From Natronoarchaeum philippinense (lineage in GTDB: Archaea; Halobacteriota; Halobacteria; Halobacteriales; Natronoarchaeaceae), in assembly GCF_900215575.1 (NCBI RefSeq), contig NZ_OBEJ01000002.1, forward strand, positions 310,001-374,000: a stretch of 64,000 nt of DNA, read 5' to 3'. The position numbers and the translations under genes were made by a program. Positions within the stretch are counted from its first letter, which is position 1. Each line of letters begins with the position of its first letter. The notes beneath the pieces are model-generated. The model had not been told where the DNA came from. It searched no databases and saw only the letters and a program-made list of their open reading frames with translations. Positions 35,528 to 57,251 of this stretch are shown in pieces.

Positions 35528-35846
35528 GGTTGTATCACCACGGGCGTTGCGTGGTTCAGCCGGCAGCCCGGCCACATTCCGTCCTGTCGAAGAGTCGGCA
35601 GGTGCCCGCTGGTGCCCGTGTCGTCCAGCGAGTTATCCGATTTTGGCCAGTTCGTCGCTTAAGGGCTTCGAAAGGGCTGCCGATGTCGACGTGCGATCGC
35701 AGGTATGCCGAGGCTGTAGCGGATAATCGGACCGTTACAAAGACGACCTTCGAGTGATCTGCCGGTATGTCACTGGCACGTAGCGCCGCCCGGCGGCGGC
35801 ACGTCGCGTCGAAACTGCGGTGCCAACCGCGAGCGAGTGATCGTCG
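35528..35846. promoter_or_regulatory. Intergenic region with a candidate L15e promoter
   Basis: No gene was seen in these 319 bases. Read leftward, CGAAGCCCTTAAGCGACGAA (35652-35671) looks like the BRE plus TATA arrangement of strongly expressed haloarchaeal genes and would give L15e a leader of about 100 bases. That leader is long for a haloarchaeon and could hold autoregulatory structure. Nothing tRNA-like was found. Confidence 0.4.
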
Positions 35847-48172: not shown

Positions 48173-49669
48173 ATGTCAGGACAGAACTCAGCAACGACGA
48201 TTGGATCGCTCCCGGATACGGCGGCGGACTCACCACTTGCGCCCGTCGCACTCACGTGGCTCGTGTGGTCGCTGTTCGCCGCGAGTATTGCCGCGCTTAC
48301 CGTCCGAGTCCAGACCGGGGGCGAATGGGAGATCTCCGGCGTGATCGCTATCGATGGACTAACCGTTCTGATGTGGTTTGTCGTCACCTTCTTCAGCGGC
48401 ATCGTCCACAGTTACTCGCGCCGCTATATGGCAGGAAGCACGCATAAAACGGCGTTTTTCGTCACTGTATTCAGTTTCACGGTGGTCGTGATGGGACTGG
48501 TTGCGGCCGATCATATCGCTCTGTTCGGGTTCCTGTGGCTGGCGATGGGGCTGCTGATGGCGAAGCTCATCGGCATCATCAGCGGCTGGGACCAAGCGCA
48601 GGCGGCCGCGTCGGTCGCCCGCAGGTACTTCCTCGCCAGCAGCGCGCTCCTCGGGGTTGCGTTGACGGCACTGTGGTGGACGACCGGCGCGTCGACGGTC
48701 TCCGGAATTGCCGCAGCAGCCGATACACTCGGCGGCCCCGCGTGGCTGGTCGCCGCCAGCGCGCTCGTGCTCGCAGCGATGATTCAGTCCGCACTCGTCC
48801 CGTTCCATAACTGGCTGCTGTCCTCGATGACGGCACCGACGCCGGCGTCGGCGCTGATGCACGCCGGATTCGTCAATGCGGGGGGAATTCTCCTGACCCG
48901 CTTTGCCCCGGTCATCACCGTCGATTCCGCGCTCATGCTCGCGGTGGTCGCCGTCGGAGGGGCCAGCGCCGTCGGCGGGAAGCTCCTGAAGTCGGTCCAG
49001 ACAGACATCAAGGGCAAGCTCGGCTGTTCGACGGTCGGCCAGATGGGCTTTATGATCATGCAGGCCGGGCTCGGATTCTTCGGGGCCGCGATCACCCACC
49101 TCGTTCTGCACGGCTTCTACAAGGCCTACCAGTTCCTGAGTTCGGGCGGACAGGTCGAACACACCAGTCCGAGTGCGACGACTGAGCACACAGTCGGGCG
49201 GATGGCGAGCGTCGGCGGCGCAGTAGTGACGCTGTTGACCGGGCTGGTTGGTGGCGGGCTGTTCGCGGTGCTGACCGGGAAGGGGGCGCACGTGGACGCC
49301 GGCCTCTTGCTGACGTTCTTCGTGGTGTTTACTACGCTCCACGCAGCCCGCAGCGCGGTCCAGCACAGCTCGCTTCCGATGATGGCTCGCTACGGGGCAG
49401 TCCCGTTGGTCTTCTTCCCGGCCATCACCGTCTACGCGGTGGTTTACGAGGCGATCTCCGGTGTGCTATCCGGACTCCCGATGGTCACGACGCCGACCGA
49501 GCTGACGCTGCTCCACGGCATCATCGCCGTCATCTTCGTCGGCATCTACATCGGTATCGAGACCGGCATCCACGAACACAGCCAGCGTCTCTACGTGGCA
49601 CTGCTGAACGCAAGCCAACCGTCGTCCGACACCGTCCTGACTTCCACGGAGGACTACAATGAGTACTGA
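48173..49669 (+). CDS. dabB: DabB-like proton-conducting membrane subunit (NuoL/MrpA family)
   Basis: 498 residues, about 13 membrane helices. It belongs to the complex I antiporter-like family: the PFHNWLLSSMTAPTPASALM segment with the invariant discontinuous helix, HAGFVNAGGILLTRFAPV and the lysine of GKLLKSVQTDIKGKLGCSTV. Paired with a DUF2309 gene it is the DabB half of a DAB inorganic carbon pump, in which cation flow drives bicarbonate formation by DabA. Its last 11 bases overlap dabA. A long in-frame start exists in another frame upstream but does not encode this protein. Confidence 0.88.
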   Translation: MSGQNSATTIGSLPDTAADSPLAPVALTWLVWSLFAASIAALTVRVQTGGEWEISGVIAIDGLTVLMWFVVTFFSGIVHSYSRRYMAGSTHKTAFFVTVFSFTVVVMGLVAADHIALFGFLWLAMGLLMAKLIGIISGWDQAQAAASVARRYFLASSALLGVALTALWWTTGASTVSGIAAAADTLGGPAWLVAASALVLAAMIQSALVPFHNWLLSSMTAPTPASALMHAGFVNAGGILLTRFAPVITVDSALMLAVVAVGGASAVGGKLLKSVQTDIKGKLGCSTVGQMGFMIMQAGLGFFGAAITHLVLHGFYKAYQFLSSGGQVEHTSPSATTEHTVGRMASVGGAVVTLLTGLVGGGLFAVLTGKGAHVDAGLLLTFFVVFTTLHAARSAVQHSSLPMMARYGAVPLVFFPAITVYAVVYEAISGVLSGLPMVTTPTELTLLHGIIAVIFVGIYIGIETGIHEHSQRLYVALLNASQPSSDTVLTSTEDYNEY

Positions 49670-52061
49670 ACCCGCCATCGACGACAGCATCGAAGACGCA
49701 GCGACGAGCGTCGGTTCCCTCTGGCCCATCCACTCGTTCGTGACGTCCAATCCCCTCTCGGGGTTCGAGGACCAGCCGTTCGACGAAGCGGTCGAGCAGG
49801 CGACCGACCTACTGGGTGGCCGTGGCTACCCGAGCCCCGAAACGTTCCGCAAAGCACTGAACCGCGGCCAGATAGACCCGGAAATTCTCGAAGCGGAGCT
49901 CGCTACGGCTGGCTACGAGGACGATACCGAGGTGTTGCTCGACCGCATGTCCGACGCGGTCGACACCGAGGAGGATGCCGACACCGTCGAAGACCACGTC
50001 GACCAAGTGCTGACGAAGTGGTTGTCGGCCTTCCTCGAGGAGGGAAGTGCCCACTGGTCGATGCCGAACCGCGAAGCCGGGTTCTACACCGCCTTCCGTG
50101 GGGTCGTCGACTACGACAGTGAAATCCCCGACGAGGGGGCCGTCGCTGACCTGCCCGAGACGCCGGCCGCAGCCATCGAGACGGTGCTGGAGCCGTACCC
50201 GAGGAGCCAGTGGGAGTCAATTTTCGAGGAGCAACTCGCTGCCCTCCCGGGCTGGACGGGTTTCATCAAGCAACGCGTCGACGACGGAGGGGAGTGGCAG
50301 TCGACGTACCCGATCTCGCTCGAAGGCTATCTCGCAGCGCGTCTGGCGCTGCTGGATGCCGTCGGCGCCGACATCGAGCCCGCGAACGACGACGCCAGCG
50401 CGAACCCGGCCGACGAGCTCGCCCAAGCGTTCCTGCGTGCGTGGGAGGCGACCTACCGCGATGAACTCGCCGGAACCGTCGCCGAAGAGAGCCAGTCGAT
50501 GGCCGGCGACGATACGTCCGGCCGCGCGGACGCTCAATTAGTCTTCTGTATCGACACCCGTTCGGAGATCATCCGCCGTCACATCGAGGCGACGGGCGAC
50601 TACGAGACCCACGGGTACGCTGGCTTCTTCGGCATCCCGATGGAGTACCAAGGCTACGAAGCCGACGTGTCGGTCGATGCCTGCCCACCGATCGTCGAAC
50701 CGCAGCACCACGTCACCGACTTTCCGACCGACGACGATACGCAGGCGAGCCACGATCGCTGGTCGGGCATCCGCGAAGCCGCCGACGAGATCATCGAGAC
50801 GCTAGAGGCCAACGCCGCCACGGCCTACGGCTTCGTCGAGACCACCGGGAGCGCCTACGGCCTCACACTTGCGGCCCGCACGCTCGTCCCCGGGCGCGTT
50901 CACGATCTGTTCGACGCCGCCGACGAGTCGGTGCCCGACGACCACGAGTTCTGCGAGCCGCTCGTCGACCACCAGCACACGTACGCTGGCGACCTGCCGG
51001 TGGGGATGACCACCGAGGAGAAAGTCGAGTACGCCGCCACCGCCTTCGAGCTGATGGGGTGGGAGGAGTTCAGTCGCCTCGTCGTCTTCACGGGCCACGC
51101 CAGCGAGACGACCAACAATCCATACGACGCGAGTCTGGACTGCGGTGCCTGTGCCGGCAACCCCGGTGGCCCGAGTGCCCGCGTCCTCGCGAAGATCTGT
51201 AACGACGACGCTGTGACGGCCGAACTCCGCGAACGCGGCCACGACATCCCCGAAGACACCGTCTTCCTCGCTGGACAACACAACACGACGACCGACGAGA
51301 TCGAACTGTACGACGGCGACGTTCCCGAGAGCCACGCCGACGATCTCGACCAGTTACGCGCGGACCTCGCCACGGCACGCGAGAACGCTGCCGCCGAGCG
51401 CGCCGAGGCGATGGGTGCCGACAGTTCGGCCGCAGTCAGCGAGACGGAGCGCCGCGCCTCCGACTGGGCAGAGACGCGTCCCGAGTGGGGACTGGCCGGC
51501 AACGCCGGCTTCGTCATCGGTCCTCGCGAGCTGACGAGCGGCGTCGACCTCGATGGCCGCGCGTTCTTGCACTCGTACGACTGGTCGACCGATCCCGACG
51601 CCGACGCGCTCGAAGCGATCTTCACGGGGCCGATGGTCGTCACCCAGTGGATCAATATGCAGTACTACTTTTCGACGGTCGACAACGGCGTCTACGGTAG
51701 CGGGTCGAAGGTGACCCACAATCCCGTCGGTAACGTCGGCGTCTACCAAGGCAACGGCGGCGACTTGATGACCGGTCTCCCGCTGCAGTCGCTGATGGCT
51801 GCCGACGACGAACCACATCACCAGCCGCTCCGCCTCTCGACGGTCGTCCACGCGCCGGTCGAGCGCGTCACCGAGGTTTTGGCCGACCACGAGGAACTGA
51901 CCGAACTGCTGGACAACGGCTGGCTCTCGCTGACGGTCGTCGACCCGACGCAGGACCACCGCGCGTTCCACTACGAGGAAGAACTGGAGTGGATACCGAT
52001 GTCTGAGCGGGACGAAGCCCCCCAAGAGAAACCGGTCGCCCCCGCTGTCGCGGACGAGTGA
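49659..52061 (+). CDS. dabA: DabA-like zinc subunit of inorganic carbon transporter (DUF2309)
   Basis: 800 residues, the usual length. The carbonic-anhydrase-like zinc site is recognisable: C297 and D299 in VFCIDTRSE, H480 in FTGHASETTNNP, and C495 in DCGACAGN. The H-to-C distance of 15 matches the characterised bacterial DabA. The protein is soluble and docks on DabB. Together they are expected to turn CO2 into trapped bicarbonate. In this organism no RuBisCO or carboxysome gene is in the window, so the use of the carbon is open; anaplerotic carboxylation is one possibility. Confidence 0.9.
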   Translation: MSTEPAIDDSIEDAATSVGSLWPIHSFVTSNPLSGFEDQPFDEAVEQATDLLGGRGYPSPETFRKALNRGQIDPEILEAELATAGYEDDTEVLLDRMSDAVDTEEDADTVEDHVDQVLTKWLSAFLEEGSAHWSMPNREAGFYTAFRGVVDYDSEIPDEGAVADLPETPAAAIETVLEPYPRSQWESIFEEQLAALPGWTGFIKQRVDDGGEWQSTYPISLEGYLAARLALLDAVGADIEPANDDASANPADELAQAFLRAWEATYRDELAGTVAEESQSMAGDDTSGRADAQLVFCIDTRSEIIRRHIEATGDYETHGYAGFFGIPMEYQGYEADVSVDACPPIVEPQHHVTDFPTDDDTQASHDRWSGIREAADEIIETLEANAATAYGFVETTGSAYGLTLAARTLVPGRVHDLFDAADESVPDDHEFCEPLVDHQHTYAGDLPVGMTTEEKVEYAATAFELMGWEEFSRLVVFTGHASETTNNPYDASLDCGACAGNPGGPSARVLAKICNDDAVTAELRERGHDIPEDTVFLAGQHNTTTDEIELYDGDVPESHADDLDQLRADLATARENAAAERAEAMGADSSAAVSETERRASDWAETRPEWGLAGNAGFVIGPRELTSGVDLDGRAFLHSYDWSTDPDADALEAIFTGPMVVTQWINMQYYFSTVDNGVYGSGSKVTHNPVGNVGVYQGNGGDLMTGLPLQSLMAADDEPHHQPLRLSTVVHAPVERVTEVLADHEELTELLDNGWLSLTVVDPTQDHRAFHYEEELEWIPMSERDEAPQEKPVAPAVADE

Positions 52062-53170: not shown

Positions 53171-54142
53171 TTACGGGTCGAGTGCGAGGCGGAAGCCGGT
53201 GTGTCCCGTCGAACTGTCCGGCGTGTTCTTACTACGGGCGGCCACGCGGTAGCGATTGCAGTACGAACGGTGACAGAGGTAGGAACCGCCTCGAATAACG
53301 CGTTCGCCACCCTCCGCCGGTCCCGTCGGGTTCGATCGCGAATTCTGGCAGGGATCGGAACGGAACCGGTCGCTACACCACTCCCAGACGTTCCCGACCG
53401 CGTTGTAGAGTCCGAAGCCGTTGGGCGGATATTCGTCGACGGGCGCGGTGCCGTAGTACCCGTCCTCCTCCGAGTTGTGGCGGGGGAAGTCGCCCTGCCA
53501 TATGTTACTCCGGTGTTCGCCGTCGGGGCGCAGATCGTCTCCCCACGGATACGTCGCACCCCGTAGCCCGCCACGGGCCGCTTTCTCCCACTCTGCCTCG
53601 GTCGGAAGCCGTTTGCCGGCCCAGTTGGCGTAGGCCTGTGCGTCGTTCCACGAAACGTGCGTCACCGGATGTTCAAGGCGCTCTATCACGGTCGAGCCGG
53701 GACCTTCCGGCCGGAACCAGTTTGCGCCCCGCACGGCGAACCACCACGGCGCCGCCTCGACGGAGTCGACGACGTGCTGCCGGTCGTCCGAACCGACGAA
53801 CTCCTCGAAGACGAACGACCACCCGTAGCGTTCCGCGTCGGTCGTGTAGTCGGTCTCGCGGACGAACTCGAGAAATTCGGCGTTCGTGACGGCGTGGCTG
53901 CTGACGTAGAACTCGTCGACGTCGACCGTTCGGGCCGGGCCTTCGCCGTCCGCCTCGTAACCGACGTCGCTGTCGGTTCCCATTCGGAACTCGCCGCCCG
54001 GAATCTTCACCATCCGGGCCGTATCGCCTGTCTCAGAGTTCTCGGAGTCCCCAGCCGAGTTCTCCGATCCCCGGTCGATCCCCCGTCCAGCACCGGAACG
54101 CGACGCGGCACAGCACTCGTGGTCGTTCTCGTCCACGGTCAC
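53171..54142 (-). CDS. Formylglycine-generating enzyme (sulfatase-modifying factor)
   Basis: 323 residues, GTG start at 54142 (a second GTG two codons later is equally possible). Almost the complete FGE/SUMF1 domain is present: MVKIPGGEFRMGTDSD, RLPTEAEWEKAARGG, NVWEWCSDRF. The active-site block GGSYLCHRSYCNRYRVAARS has the two copper-binding catalytic cysteines C290 and C295. This block is strikingly close to the human enzyme, rather than a generic C-type-lectin-like family member. The N-terminal ECCAASR resembles the CC-x-P/A-xR start of bacterial FGEs. It oxidises a sulfatase cysteine to formylglycine; its client is encoded 133 bases upstream. Confidence 0.92.
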   Translation of the reverse strand: MTVDENDHECCAASRSGAGRGIDRGSENSAGDSENSETGDTARMVKIPGGEFRMGTDSDVGYEADGEGPARTVDVDEFYVSSHAVTNAEFLEFVRETDYTTDAERYGWSFVFEEFVGSDDRQHVVDSVEAAPWWFAVRGANWFRPEGPGSTVIERLEHPVTHVSWNDAQAYANWAGKRLPTEAEWEKAARGGLRGATYPWGDDLRPDGEHRSNIWQGDFPRHNSEEDGYYGTAPVDEYPPNGFGLYNAVGNVWEWCSDRFRSDPCQNSRSNPTGPAEGGERVIRGGSYLCHRSYCNRYRVAARSKNTPDSSTGHTGFRLALDP

Positions 54143-54275
54143 ACCACCCCTTCGAGGTGTTCTCTTGCCGGCATTCCGACCGTCTCTACCGCGCGTCCGT
54201 ACGCGTTTACCGAATACATAGTGATCATATAATATATTTTATATCCGCAGCTCGAATCACGCTCGTGGGATCTCG
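54143..54275 (-). promoter_or_regulatory. Promoter between sulfatase and FGE genes
   Basis: This gap holds a markedly AT-rich block (about 54215-54245) with TATAATATATTTTATA, the strongest TATA-like stretch in this part of the window. It suggests that the FGE gene has its own transcript instead of relying on read-through from the sulfatase. The leader would be about 70 bases. Confidence 0.4.
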
Positions 54276-55631
54276 TCACTCTGACCTCACGCGATCGATC
54301 GCGTCCGGCGGATTGAACCCCGGAATCTGTGGAACCATCGGATACTGTGGATTCGCGCCGAACGCGTCGTCGTGTTCGACGCACCACTCGAACAGGCGTT
54401 CGCGGTGTTCCGCGAGCACGTCGCCGTACTCGGCGTTCTCCGAGAGGTCAACCATCTCTCCCGGATCGTTCCGGAGATCGAACAGTTGTTCGCGCTGACG
54501 CCCGCGTTCGTAGACGATGTACTTGTACCGATCCGTTCGGACCACCCGGCCGCCGAGTTGAATGTTCGTCTGTACGACTACCTGGTCTCTCCATTCGGTA
54601 TCCTGACCGGCGGCGAGCGGCCTGACGCTCTTCCCGTCGAGATCGTCCGGCGGCGTGATATCCGCGTAGTCACACAGCGTCGGCAGGACGTCTAGCCCGT
54701 TCGAGACGAGGTGGTCGTCGGTCTCTCCTTCGAGCGTCTCGCCGGGGTAGCTGACGATGAACGGAACCCGGACGCTCTCTTCGTACCCCCAACACTTCTG
54801 CTCGAGTTGGTGGGCGCCGTTCAGTTCCCCGTGGTCCGAGGTGAACACGATCACCGTGTTCTCGGTGAGTCCCCGTTCGTCGAGCGCGTCCAGAAGTTCC
54901 CCGATTTCGGCGTCGACCTTCTCGACCAGTCGGAAGTAGGCGTGGCGATAGTGGCGCCACTCCTCCGCCGTCGCGTCGACCATGTTTCCGGAGAGTCCGC
55001 TGGGGCGCGAGGCCTCCATCAACGTTCTGATCTCCGACGGTTCGAACGGCGGGATGCCGTAGTTCTTCGGGAGATCCGGACACTCCTCGGTCGGGACCGA
55101 TTCGACGTTGCCCCACGGAAGGTTCTCGTTGCGAGCGACTTCGCAGATGTTGTGCGGGTTGTCGAACGACGCGACGAGGAAGAACGGGTCGTCCCGGTCG
55201 CGATCGAGGAAGTCGATGCAGTTGTCCGCGAGCGTGAGGTCGTTCATCCCCTGAAGGGTCTCGAAGCCGTGCTCGTCCGGGAGCGTCATCTCCGGAACGT
55301 GCCACTTTCCGCCGTAGGCGCAGTCGTAGCCGGCGTCGTCGAACAGGCGTCCCAGTTCCTCGTCTCGATACCGCTCGTCGATCTCGGAATTGTTGTCGGA
55401 CGCGCCGACTTCGTGCGGCATGCGACCGGAGAACAGGCTCGCTCGCGACGGATTGCACAGCGGCTGCGTACAGTACGTGTCGGTGAAGCGCACGCCGCGA
55501 TCGGCCAGCCGGTCCATCGCCGGCGTCTCGACGTAGTCGCTGCCCGCGCAACTCATCGCGTCCGCTGATTGCTGGTCGGTGAGGACGAACAGTACGTTGG
55601 GTCCGGTGGTTTGATCGGTATTCGTAGTCAT
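54276..55631 (-). CDS. Cysteine-type sulfatase
   Basis: 451 residues from the ATG at 55631. The sulfatase signature is complete: C59 in LCNPSRASLFSGR is the residue converted to formylglycine (C-x-P-S-R). Metal ligands include D19-Q20 in VLTDQQSAD and the DHG of TSDHGELNG. The C-terminal subdomain has the DLRNDPGEMVDLSENAEY segment. There is no signal peptide, so it acts inside the cell. The substrate may be a sulfated sugar or choline sulfate; closest features suggest the type I arylsulfatase family. It lies one base after the stop of the damaged oxidoreductase. Confidence 0.9.
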   Translation of the reverse strand: MTTNTDQTTGPNVLFVLTDQQSADAMSCAGSDYVETPAMDRLADRGVRFTDTYCTQPLCNPSRASLFSGRMPHEVGASDNNSEIDERYRDEELGRLFDDAGYDCAYGGKWHVPEMTLPDEHGFETLQGMNDLTLADNCIDFLDRDRDDPFFLVASFDNPHNICEVARNENLPWGNVESVPTEECPDLPKNYGIPPFEPSEIRTLMEASRPSGLSGNMVDATAEEWRHYRHAYFRLVEKVDAEIGELLDALDERGLTENTVIVFTSDHGELNGAHQLEQKCWGYEESVRVPFIVSYPGETLEGETDDHLVSNGLDVLPTLCDYADITPPDDLDGKSVRPLAAGQDTEWRDQVVVQTNIQLGGRVVRTDRYKYIVYERGRQREQLFDLRNDPGEMVDLSENAEYGDVLAEHRERLFEWCVEHDDAFGANPQYPMVPQIPGFNPPDAIDRVRSE

Positions 55632-55632
55632 G

Positions 55633-56127
55633 TCAGTAGATAGTACTCGTCTTGTTTCGGGCCGCGGGGGTTTTGTCGCGTGTGTACGATCGAACCGCGG
55701 GTATTGAGCGCTCACGGCGTGCTCTCGGGGCCGTCAGCTCGTTCGGTTTACCGTCGATATCGACACGGACTCTCTTTCCGGACCGTTCCGATTCGTATGC
55801 GGCCTCGGTAAGTGCGGTCACGGCAAGGGCGTCCCGGGCGGTGGCTGGCGGAGGGTTTCCGTTCACGATCGAATCGACGATCGATGTCGTTCGATCGTCC
55901 CAGTCGGAGAGGACGGCGTCGAGTGGCTCGTCGGCCGACAATTCGTCGTGGGTCTCGTAGCGGCTTTCTTCGGGTACTTCGAGCGTCTCTCCGGCTTCGT
56001 CCATGTTCTGGGCACTGATGTCGGCGACTGCTTCGACGGACTCCGATTCGATGTCGCGCAGTTGGTGACCGAACAGAGTGCCGAAGTCTCCGGTTCCGAT
56101 GATGCCTGTGCTGATCTGCTGCGACAT
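55633..56127 (-). pseudogene. Collapsed Gfo/Idh/MocA-family oxidoreductase (internal deletion)
   Basis: 164 residues, against about 350 for the family. The first 74 residues are a normal Rossmann start (GIIGTGDFGTLFGHQL). At about base 55905 the frame passes directly into a family C-terminal segment (NPPPATARDALAVTALTEAA, then YESERSGKRVRVDI), with the whole middle, including the catalytic EKP region, missing. The frame is kept and the protein ends in a basic stretch, so it may still be translated but cannot be a working dehydrogenase. It precedes the sulfatase gene, so it may once have handled the released sugar. Confidence 0.78.
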
Positions 56128-56384
56128 GGGTGTACGATTGAAGATGGAATAGGAAAATAAGTGTAATCAGAACGAATATTCTGTTATCGGATTGTTCGGT
56201 TATACCGGTCCAGAGGAGTCACCCTCCACTGTCGGTTGAGTCGACCAAGAACCGGCCTTTCAGCGCCCCTCTATCGGCCGAATTTAGCACGGTGGACAAC
56301 AACAACAAGAGCGCCGACGATCAAACGACTCAAGAAATCTTCGGCGGCGACAGATTCACCACGGGGACGTGCTATCGTAGGCGC
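56128..56384. promoter_or_regulatory. Divergent region between the sulfatase cluster and zinc-ribbon regulator
   Basis: A leftward CACTTATTTTCC (56150-56161) is a fair TATA for the pseudogene-sulfatase transcript. An inverted repeat CAGAA-CGAATA-TTCTG (56168-56183) lies directly upstream of it, so a regulator bound there could control the promoter. The divergent HTH gene is the natural candidate. Confidence 0.42.
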
Positions 56385-57251
56385 ATGGGCGAGCAGACCA
56401 TCGAGGTGGATCAGGAACGGGCCGCAAGCGCGTTCGGAGCGCTGGCCGACCCGAGTCGTATCGGAATCCTCCTCGCGCTCTGGCAGTCCGGTCCGCTCGC
56501 GTTCGCAGATCTCCACAGAGAGACGGCGATAGAAGATAGCGGTCGCTTCAACTACCATTTGGACAGACTCGTCGACCAGTTCGTCATCAAAACGGAGGAC
56601 ACCTATCGGCTCACGCCGGTCGGTGCGAAGGTAGCCGACATCCTGTTGGACGCCCGATTCGGTCCGACCCCACCGCCGATAGACGAACCCACGGACGCCG
56701 ACTGTCCTGACTGCGGCGAACGCATCCACGCCCGCTACGAGAACGGAGATATCAGGCTCCAGTGTTCGGCCTGTGACTTGCTCGTCCACTACGGTTACTT
56801 CCCGCCGCGCGGCCGAACAACCCGCGACGCCGACGGGTTCCTCGACGCGTACTCACAGCGTCTCTGGAGGGATTTCTCGCTCGCTCACCGCGGCGTCTGT
56901 CCGCACTGCAGCGGCCGGATGCGCAATCGAATCGACGAGGACCCCGACTGGTATCCCGACTACGCCGCCAAGAGCATCTGCCGAGACTGCGGTGTCTCCG
57001 TCGGTTCCACGCTGGGGCTCCGACTGCTTGGAGATCCTGACGTGGTCGCCTTTCTCGCCGATCACGACGTTCACGCCGACGACAACAGGTTCTGGACGCT
57101 GGAGTTCTGCCTCGATGACTCCGATGTACGTGTGGTTTCGGACCCGGTTCGCCGGTACGTGATACCGATCAGTACCGACTCGGAGACGCTCGAAGTCATC
57201 GTGGACGAAACCGCGTCGGTCGTCGAGACGGCGCGATGGTCGCACCGGTAA
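56385..57251 (+). CDS. ArsR-like regulator with zinc-ribbon domains (DUF7351-like)
   Basis: 288 residues from the ATG at 56385; a GTG 31 codons upstream has no support. The winged helix covers about residues 8-85 (AFGALADPSRIGILLALWQS, GRFNYHLDRLVDQFVI). Then come cysteine pairs CPDC/CSAC and CPHC/CRDC that look like two zinc ribbons. This architecture is common in haloarchaea as a regulator of unknown effector. It is divergent from the sulfatase cluster and may control it. Confidence 0.78.
   Translation: MGEQTIEVDQERAASAFGALADPSRIGILLALWQSGPLAFADLHRETAIEDSGRFNYHLDRLVDQFVIKTEDTYRLTPVGAKVADILLDARFGPTPPPIDEPTDADCPDCGERIHARYENGDIRLQCSACDLLVHYGYFPPRGRTTRDADGFLDAYSQRLWRDFSLAHRGVCPHCSGRMRNRIDEDPDWYPDYAAKSICRDCGVSVGSTLGLRLLGDPDVVAFLADHDVHADDNRFWTLEFCLDDSDVRVVSDPVRRYVIPISTDSETLEVIVDETASVVETARWSHR

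Follow-up and report, generated by a model that had tools for sequence, protein, structure and literature searches.

A conserved dicysteine arm on a formylglycine-generating enzyme encoded beside a Cys-type sulfatase in the haloarchaeon Natronoarchaeum philippinense

Close to the N-terminus of a formylglycine-generating enzyme (FGE) of the haloarchaeon Natronoarchaeum philippinense are two directly adjacent cysteines, C10 and C11, on an arm that is under strong selection. The enzyme is encoded next to a Cys-type sulfatase in the 64-kb window, by which is meant the whole stretch of DNA that was analysed and to which the coordinates refer unless a contig or locus is named. It is the N-terminal arm that is the less expected result; the FGE-sulfatase pair itself is not exotic. 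The conserved cysteine pair, being just two residues to mutate, is a direct handle on how FGE gets its copper and electrons inside cells. The arm is seemingly missing from the constructs used for the Streptomyces coelicolor structure and is cut off by some gene annotations. Its presence in prokaryotes casts doubt on the idea that a cysteine-bearing extension such as that of human FGE is special to higher eukaryotes, and as a protein-tagging tool FGE may gain from it.

The enzyme and the adjoining sulfatase

The FGE gene (53171-54142, minus strand) encodes 323 amino acids from a GTG start at 54142, with a second GTG two codons downstream, and its core, approximately residues 41-320, matches PF03781 with 274.3 bits (cut-off 23.3), covering profile positions 3-254 of 255. 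On the same strand 54276-55631 encodes a type I (Cys-type) sulfatase of 451 amino acids from an ATG at 55631 (a GTG 84 bases upstream would give 479), in which no signal peptide is seen and which matches PF00884 over profile positions 1-301 of 301 (171 bits) and SGSH_C (89.5 bits); neither the PF03781 nor the PF00884 match is explicable by chance. The sequence-only reading of this DNA had placed an FGE beside its Cys-type sulfatase, and the arrangement holds, with the sulfatase first and a gap of 133 bp, as do the positions it gave for C290 and C295 of the FGE and C59 of the sulfatase. By homology to the copper FGE structures 6s07 and 6muj the two FGE cysteines form a putative copper-binding pair, C290-HRSY-C295 within GGSYLCHRSYC (53258-53275, minus strand), and C290, H291 and C295 do not vary in either of two alignments, one of 59 homologues and one of 65 (59/59 and 65/65 for both cysteines). 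The predicted formylglycine site of the sulfatase is C59-N-P-S-R (residues 59-63; 55443-55457, minus strand), preceded by leucine in the N-terminal part of the protein and evident both on reading the sequence and as a match to the DNA pattern (G000:C2:365426-365457).

Against the NCBIfam models for EgtB, SenA, PvdO and GldK the enzyme scores 119 with a cut-off of 360, 117 with 420, 78 with 500 and 124 with 350, respectively, and it is likewise far beneath the cut-off for OvoA. The nearest solved proteins by sequence are FGEs (E ~1e-112 to 1e-104 in the PDB), with the paralogue SUMF2 and CalU17 ranking well behind. An AlphaFold model based on 59 homologues (mean pLDDT 79, pTM 0.81) is mostly confident in the core and of low confidence in the active-site stretch, residues 286-304, and its best PDB match is 6s07, an FGE in complex with both copper and its substrate (TM 0.82/0.87). 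An EgtB-like or lectin-like identity is ruled out by the sub-cut-off family scores and the fold match; the grouping with lectin-like non-FGE proteins, which the sequence-only reading had set against its own assignment, is not seen in family scores, PDB ranks or fold. Sequence and model together support placing the protein with the copper FGEs rather than among relatives of the EgtB, PvdO or lectin-like kinds. A further FGE is encoded elsewhere in the genome (C4:136539-137531 on G000:C4, the same gene as L017:11537-12541), 62% identical to the first and convergent with a Cys-type sulfatase (CAPSR).

The N-terminal arm

The FGE starts VTVDENDHE-CC-AASR, and the conserved part of the arm is residues 9-15, E-C10-C11-A-A-S-R (54098-54118, minus strand), the whole arm extending from residue 1 to approximately residue 40 and including a disordered linker. 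This CC arm had escaped the sequence-only reading. The second FGE has a CC arm of its own, VTDEDRACCAGSR, with the start VTDEDRA-CC-AGSR. C10 and C11 are present in 59 of the 59 aligned homologues and R15 in 81%; the linker that follows is unalignable, its commonest residue accounting for 13-44% in most columns of the 59-sequence alignment, and pLDDT is below 50 for residues 1-36. When FGEs with an active site of the LCHxSYC type (LCH type) are considered as a whole, CC is near the start in 105 of the 107 that are assessable, a number that leaves out two more with contig-end cuts and includes a few tails with CxC instead of CC; L103 and L130 appear to be without the arm. One Agrobacterium FGE starts MSGCGCGASR. 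The first cysteine is anywhere from residue 4 to residue 33, with a median of 8, and lies within the first 15 (residues 4-15) in 99 of 104 tailed proteins. Arm-bearing FGEs span haloarchaea and Bacillota, Actinomycetota, Chloroflexota, Pseudomonadota, Verrucomicrobiota, Acidobacteriota and Deinococcota. CC occurs in the first 17 residues of just 2 of 706 control ORFs on the FGE-bearing contigs, and this control together with the invariance in the alignment rules out that the motif is due to chance or is an annotation artefact.

One reason for the motif having gone unnoticed may be that annotated starts are often downstream of it: the annotated coding sequence begins after CC in four of the plasmid records examined, from Halocatena, Microvirga, Sagittula and Agrobacterium (L168:5992-6996, L169, L170 and L173). 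The S. coelicolor crystal chain aligns only from 11 residues past the CC of a Streptomyces homologue onwards, and so solved constructs appear to be without the arm. Searches of the open full-text literature, a scope outside which the primary FGE structure papers and Mariappan 2008 fall, turned up no account of such an arm in prokaryotes, and priority is thus not established.

Distribution and origin

FGE is sporadic in haloarchaea. Nineteen of 292 sampled genomes have the N. philippinense (LCH) type, ~58-67% identical, and 11 have a second type, ~41-53% identical, with one more genome having a broken fragment only; FGE is thus present in ~10% of the sampled genomes, as two lineages. In the rest of the phylum outside the haloarchaea only distant FGE-like proteins were found, and the same is true of a viral scan. 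A maximum-likelihood tree was made from 123 FGE cores, the bacterial sample consisting of the best 80 of one contig scan, picked by similarity, plus plasmids; the scan used six search peptides, of which one (DENDHECC) includes CC and five do not. In this tree the 23 haloarchaeal FGEs of the N. philippinense type form one clade (SH-aLRT 99), and the second haloarchaeal type forms a separate clade near Gordonia. Because the former lies inside the bacterial radiation, beside Actinomycetota and Chloroflexota (support 87, which is not strong), acquisition from bacteria is supported, and we read the two clades as probably reflecting two acquisitions of FGE from bacteria by haloarchaea. The transfer that the sequence-only reading suspected, and for which it proposed a phylogeny against bacterial homologues, is borne out by the nesting of these 23 proteins among bacteria, the sporadic spread and the finding of only distant FGE-like proteins elsewhere in the phylum. 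Its argument that FGE belongs mainly to eukaryotes and aerobic bacteria, and so is remarkable in an archaeon, is weak given the two lineages and their frequency. RefSeq, in haloarchaeal plasmids, already names such proteins ‘formylglycine-generating enzyme family protein’, and because of that annotation the FGE-sulfatase pair as such is ordinary. Broken FGE copies, with stops or a frameshift, occur in haloarchaea and in Phyllobacterium (L052; G264:C2:319377-319892; G196:C3:63613-63768; L193), and so gain and loss of FGE genes is frequent.

A second position for the cysteine pair

The second haloarchaeal lineage (L043-L053 and L179) has the active site HLCAPNYC and a loop that reads CCTPTNPRG, and is often near one or two Cys-type sulfatases. 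It is of a PxYC type (LCAPNYC, LCSPNYC, LCAPEYC and similar) whose members have no tail CC, with the exception of one Azospirillum protein that has both; in this type CC, mostly as CC[TIV]PxNP, is in the loop that runs from WEW to the active-site GGS, a loop that is usually longer. All 20 intact PxYC-type enzymes without a signal sequence have the loop CC (that of L051, missed by the pattern and visible on reading, is counted by hand within the 20), the sources being haloarchaea, Rhizobiales, Methylobacterium, Sphingobium, Rhodococcus, Gordonia and Mycobacterium, and in no LCH-type enzyme is there CC in that loop. The tail form and the loop form are two clades in the tree. The AlphaFold model of the PxYC type is poor (pLDDT 59), and the position of the CC loop relative to the copper is not readable from it.

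Four FGEs with an N-terminal signal or membrane sequence, from Nostoc, Microscilla, Skermanella and Caballeronia, have neither tail nor loop CC. The exported FGEs comprise about two lineages in the tree, too few independent ones for significance on it; a correlation of arm loss with exported location was accordingly not accepted as proven, and the link between the two is suggestive only. Neither CC position is present, by pattern test, in 28 relatives that are without an intact Cys pair, a group made up of distant FGE-like proteins together with a few broken copies, though the broken Phyllobacterium copy keeps the loop CC on direct reading despite being negative in that test.

Sulfatases, their maturation and the surroundings of the locus

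The genome encodes at least six Cys-type sulfatases with CxP[SA]R: CNPSR (54276-55631), CLPSR, CVPSR and CAPSR on C4, CMPAR on C1 and CSPSR on C3; several further members of the sulfatase fold carry TLPSH instead and do not belong to the formylglycine type. The search of the genome for an anSME radical-SAM maturase gave a best TIGR03942 match of 29.6 bits against a cut-off of 349. The sulfatase at 54276-55631 is probably a substrate of the adjoining FGE. Among haloarchaea a strict DNA motif for Cys-sulfatases is matched in 26 of 30 FGE-positive genomes versus 60 of 262 FGE-negative ones (Fisher p 7e-12, uncorrected for phylogeny). anSME is over its cut-off in only one (G002) of the ~60 FGE-negative genomes that match the pattern, and either formylglycine is not needed by their Cys-pattern sulfatases or there is another, unknown maturation system. 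A conserved haloarchaeal sulfatase-like protein of ~450 amino acids with APQCSPSR[GS]S[LM]MTG (L020:4470-5816; L194, L195, L197, L198, L199, L201-L205 and L207) was also seen in FGE-negative genomes, 49-85% identical to the copy in the N. philippinense genome; a search for conserved neighbours gave none.

A role of the FGE-sulfatase pair in scavenging sulfate esters is plausible from the sulfatase and glycoside-hydrolase neighbours in relatives: FGE adjoins a sulfatase, GH78 and GH2 in Halomontanus rarus, and a sulfatase and GH88 in Halocatena marina, where a homologue of the 54276-55631 sulfatase (54.6% identical) is also beside GH88. In the N. philippinense genome two Cys-type sulfatases are among MocA oxidoreductases and ThuA, with GH3 farther along the same 16 kb stretch. 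The solved structure nearest to the sulfatase is 5g2t, a 2-O glycosaminoglycan sulfatase, and this similarity and the GH88-linked homologue are hints only to its substrate.

The island that holds the pair is accessory and partly eroded. The gene immediately upstream of the sulfatase is the remnant of a Gfo/Idh/MocA oxidoreductase gene (55633-56127, minus strand) with an in-frame internal deletion, which keeps just the N-terminal Rossmann piece (PF01408, residues 6-72); in intact homologues the two pieces are hundreds of bases apart inside a stretch of ~1 kb. The remnant, and the rarity of the sulfatase, for which there is no close match in 291 other haloarchaeal genomes, might be taken to mean that the pair too is a decaying relic and the locus vestigial, but both FGE and sulfatase have intact frames and active-site residues, and another intact FGE and further Cys-type sulfatases are encoded in the genome; we regard a relic as the least probable of the explanations considered. 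A divergent gene encodes an HTH protein of the DUF7347/DUF7351 kind (56292-57251, plus strand; PF24042 170 bits, PF24038 83.5 bits), a possible regulator judging by its position. Elsewhere in the window, 48173-52061 on the plus strand encodes DabA (898 bits) and a preceding membrane protein of NADH-dehydrogenase-subunit type that is probably DabB, the two probably making an inorganic carbon transporter pair near the locus. A gene for an IS605 OrfB/TnpB-like transposase (PF07282, PF01385; 45850-47088, minus strand) is a few kb from the locus, and an eL15-Euryarchaeota ribosomal protein leader (Rfam RF03144, 43.5 bits) is at 35548-35602 on the minus strand.

What the arm may do

With the identity of the enzyme, the motif, the pairing and the clade in hand, and with catalysis, location and substrate suggested by the family and the lack of signal peptides, the reading to which we lean, at a little above even confidence, is of a cytosolic FGE of bacterial origin that matures C59 of the sulfatase and whose dicysteine arm most likely serves the copper centre. 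The O2- and Cu(I)-dependent enzyme would oxidise C59 (CNPSR) of the adjoining cytosolic sulfatase to formylglycine, and probably also convert the cysteine of other sulfatases in the cell, the matured sulfatases then cleaving sulfate esters of imported sugars. The thiolates of C10 and C11 would capture Cu(I) from a tightly buffered cytosolic pool and hand it to C290 and C295 by ligand exchange, perhaps feeding electrons too, and enzymes without the tail would use the same kind of cysteine pair in the loop shortly before their copper cysteines. Capture and transfer of Cu(I) is favoured because adjacent thiolates suit Cu(I), the arm co-occurs with the copper cysteines, and from both positions it could reach them flexibly. 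Counting against this reading, the gene families most often seen around the bacterial FGE genes examined include neither a copper chaperone nor a thioredoxin, and the AlphaFold model has the tail disordered with no docking.

Human FGE, which is lost in multiple sulfatase deficiency, has the tail motif C50-G-C52-G-T-P-Q-R, and thiol reductant is added in assays of FGE in vitro. The N-terminal extension with C50 and C52 has been called unique to FGE of higher eukaryotes, and mutation of these cysteines abolishes both sulfatase activation in cells and ERp44 binding (2020 review, PMC7279497), the other role attributed to them being ERp44 retention (PMC4505483, PMC7279497). In vitro human FGE requires copper and can dispense with the extension, and the S. 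coelicolor and human core enzymes are active after simple Cu(II) treatment (2015 study, PMC4505483); the arm is therefore unneeded for catalysis or copper binding in excess copper. The review and the 2015 study, taken with the conservation of CC in prokaryotes, which have no ER, suggest an older function of the cysteine extension. A broader proposal, held tentatively and at somewhat under even confidence, is that non-exported FGEs carry a mobile dicysteine arm, as tail or loop, that is an ancestral element for Cu(I) acquisition or electron delivery, with human C50/C52 its descendant or counterpart to which ER retention was added later. If this is true, loss of human C50/C52 would starve FGE of copper or electrons besides mislocalising it.

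The main rival to transfer of Cu(I), though we think it unlikely, is an electron relay in which the arm cycles between dithiol and disulfide, passing electrons for each O2 turnover from cellular reductants to the active site without any loading of copper. Two conserved cysteines on a mobile arm would suit such a relay, as would the human extension being essential through its cysteines in cells and dispensable in vitro, where thiol reductant is present; however, directly adjacent cysteines make a strained and uncommon redox disulfide, and small cytosolic thiols could deliver the electrons directly. Less credence still is given to an intramolecular pseudosubstrate that could sit in the substrate groove, shielding the Cu(I) site or gating access to it: from the second cysteine, 55 of 104 tails, and 18 of the 23 haloarchaeal ones, fit C-x-[PA]-x-R (C-A-A-S-R here), a resemblance to the sulfatase substrate consensus CXPXR (PMC4505483) to which the frequent arginine of the aligned tails adds. 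Yet only about half of the tails fit, neither the R nor the A/P is constant, actinobacterial tails are often without the R (CCTPAG, CCAPTS), conservation of both cysteines is unexplained when a substrate needs one, and here too the lack of docking in the model is unfavourable. A shade more improbable is a role unrelated to catalysis, in partner docking, disulfide dimerisation or zinc binding. A short conserved motif within a disordered tail often serves for docking, and the human extension cysteines do bind ERp44, but the arm is found in unrelated phyla and in an archaeon with no ER, CC is in two different positions, and none of the 28 relatives without an intact Cys pair has it by pattern test (the exception on reading being the Phyllobacterium copy). 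To each of these we prefer delivery of Cu(I) by the arm to C290 and C295.

Comparison with known systems

EgtB, SenA, OvoA, PvdO and GldK have the FGE-sulfatase domain in common with the archaeal FGE, which is far from reaching the cut-offs of any of them. With the FGEs of Thermomonospora curvata and S. coelicolor (6s07, 2q17 and 6muj) it shares the fold and the active-site block with both copper cysteines, whereas solved constructs appear to be without the dicysteine arm that it has. The PxYC-type FGEs of the second haloarchaeal lineage, Mycobacterium, Rhizobiaceae and others are like it in having Cys-x4-Cys in the same place and neighbouring sulfatases, and differ in having a CAPNYC-type active site rather than CHxxYC and a loop CC instead of an N-terminal one. 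Human FGE (SUMF1) has the same core and also has a cysteine pair in its N-terminal extension, C50 and C52 in comparison with the archaeal C10 and C11, but it is an ER enzyme with a signal peptide and a tail that binds ERp44, whereas the prokaryotic arm-bearing FGEs are without a signal peptide.
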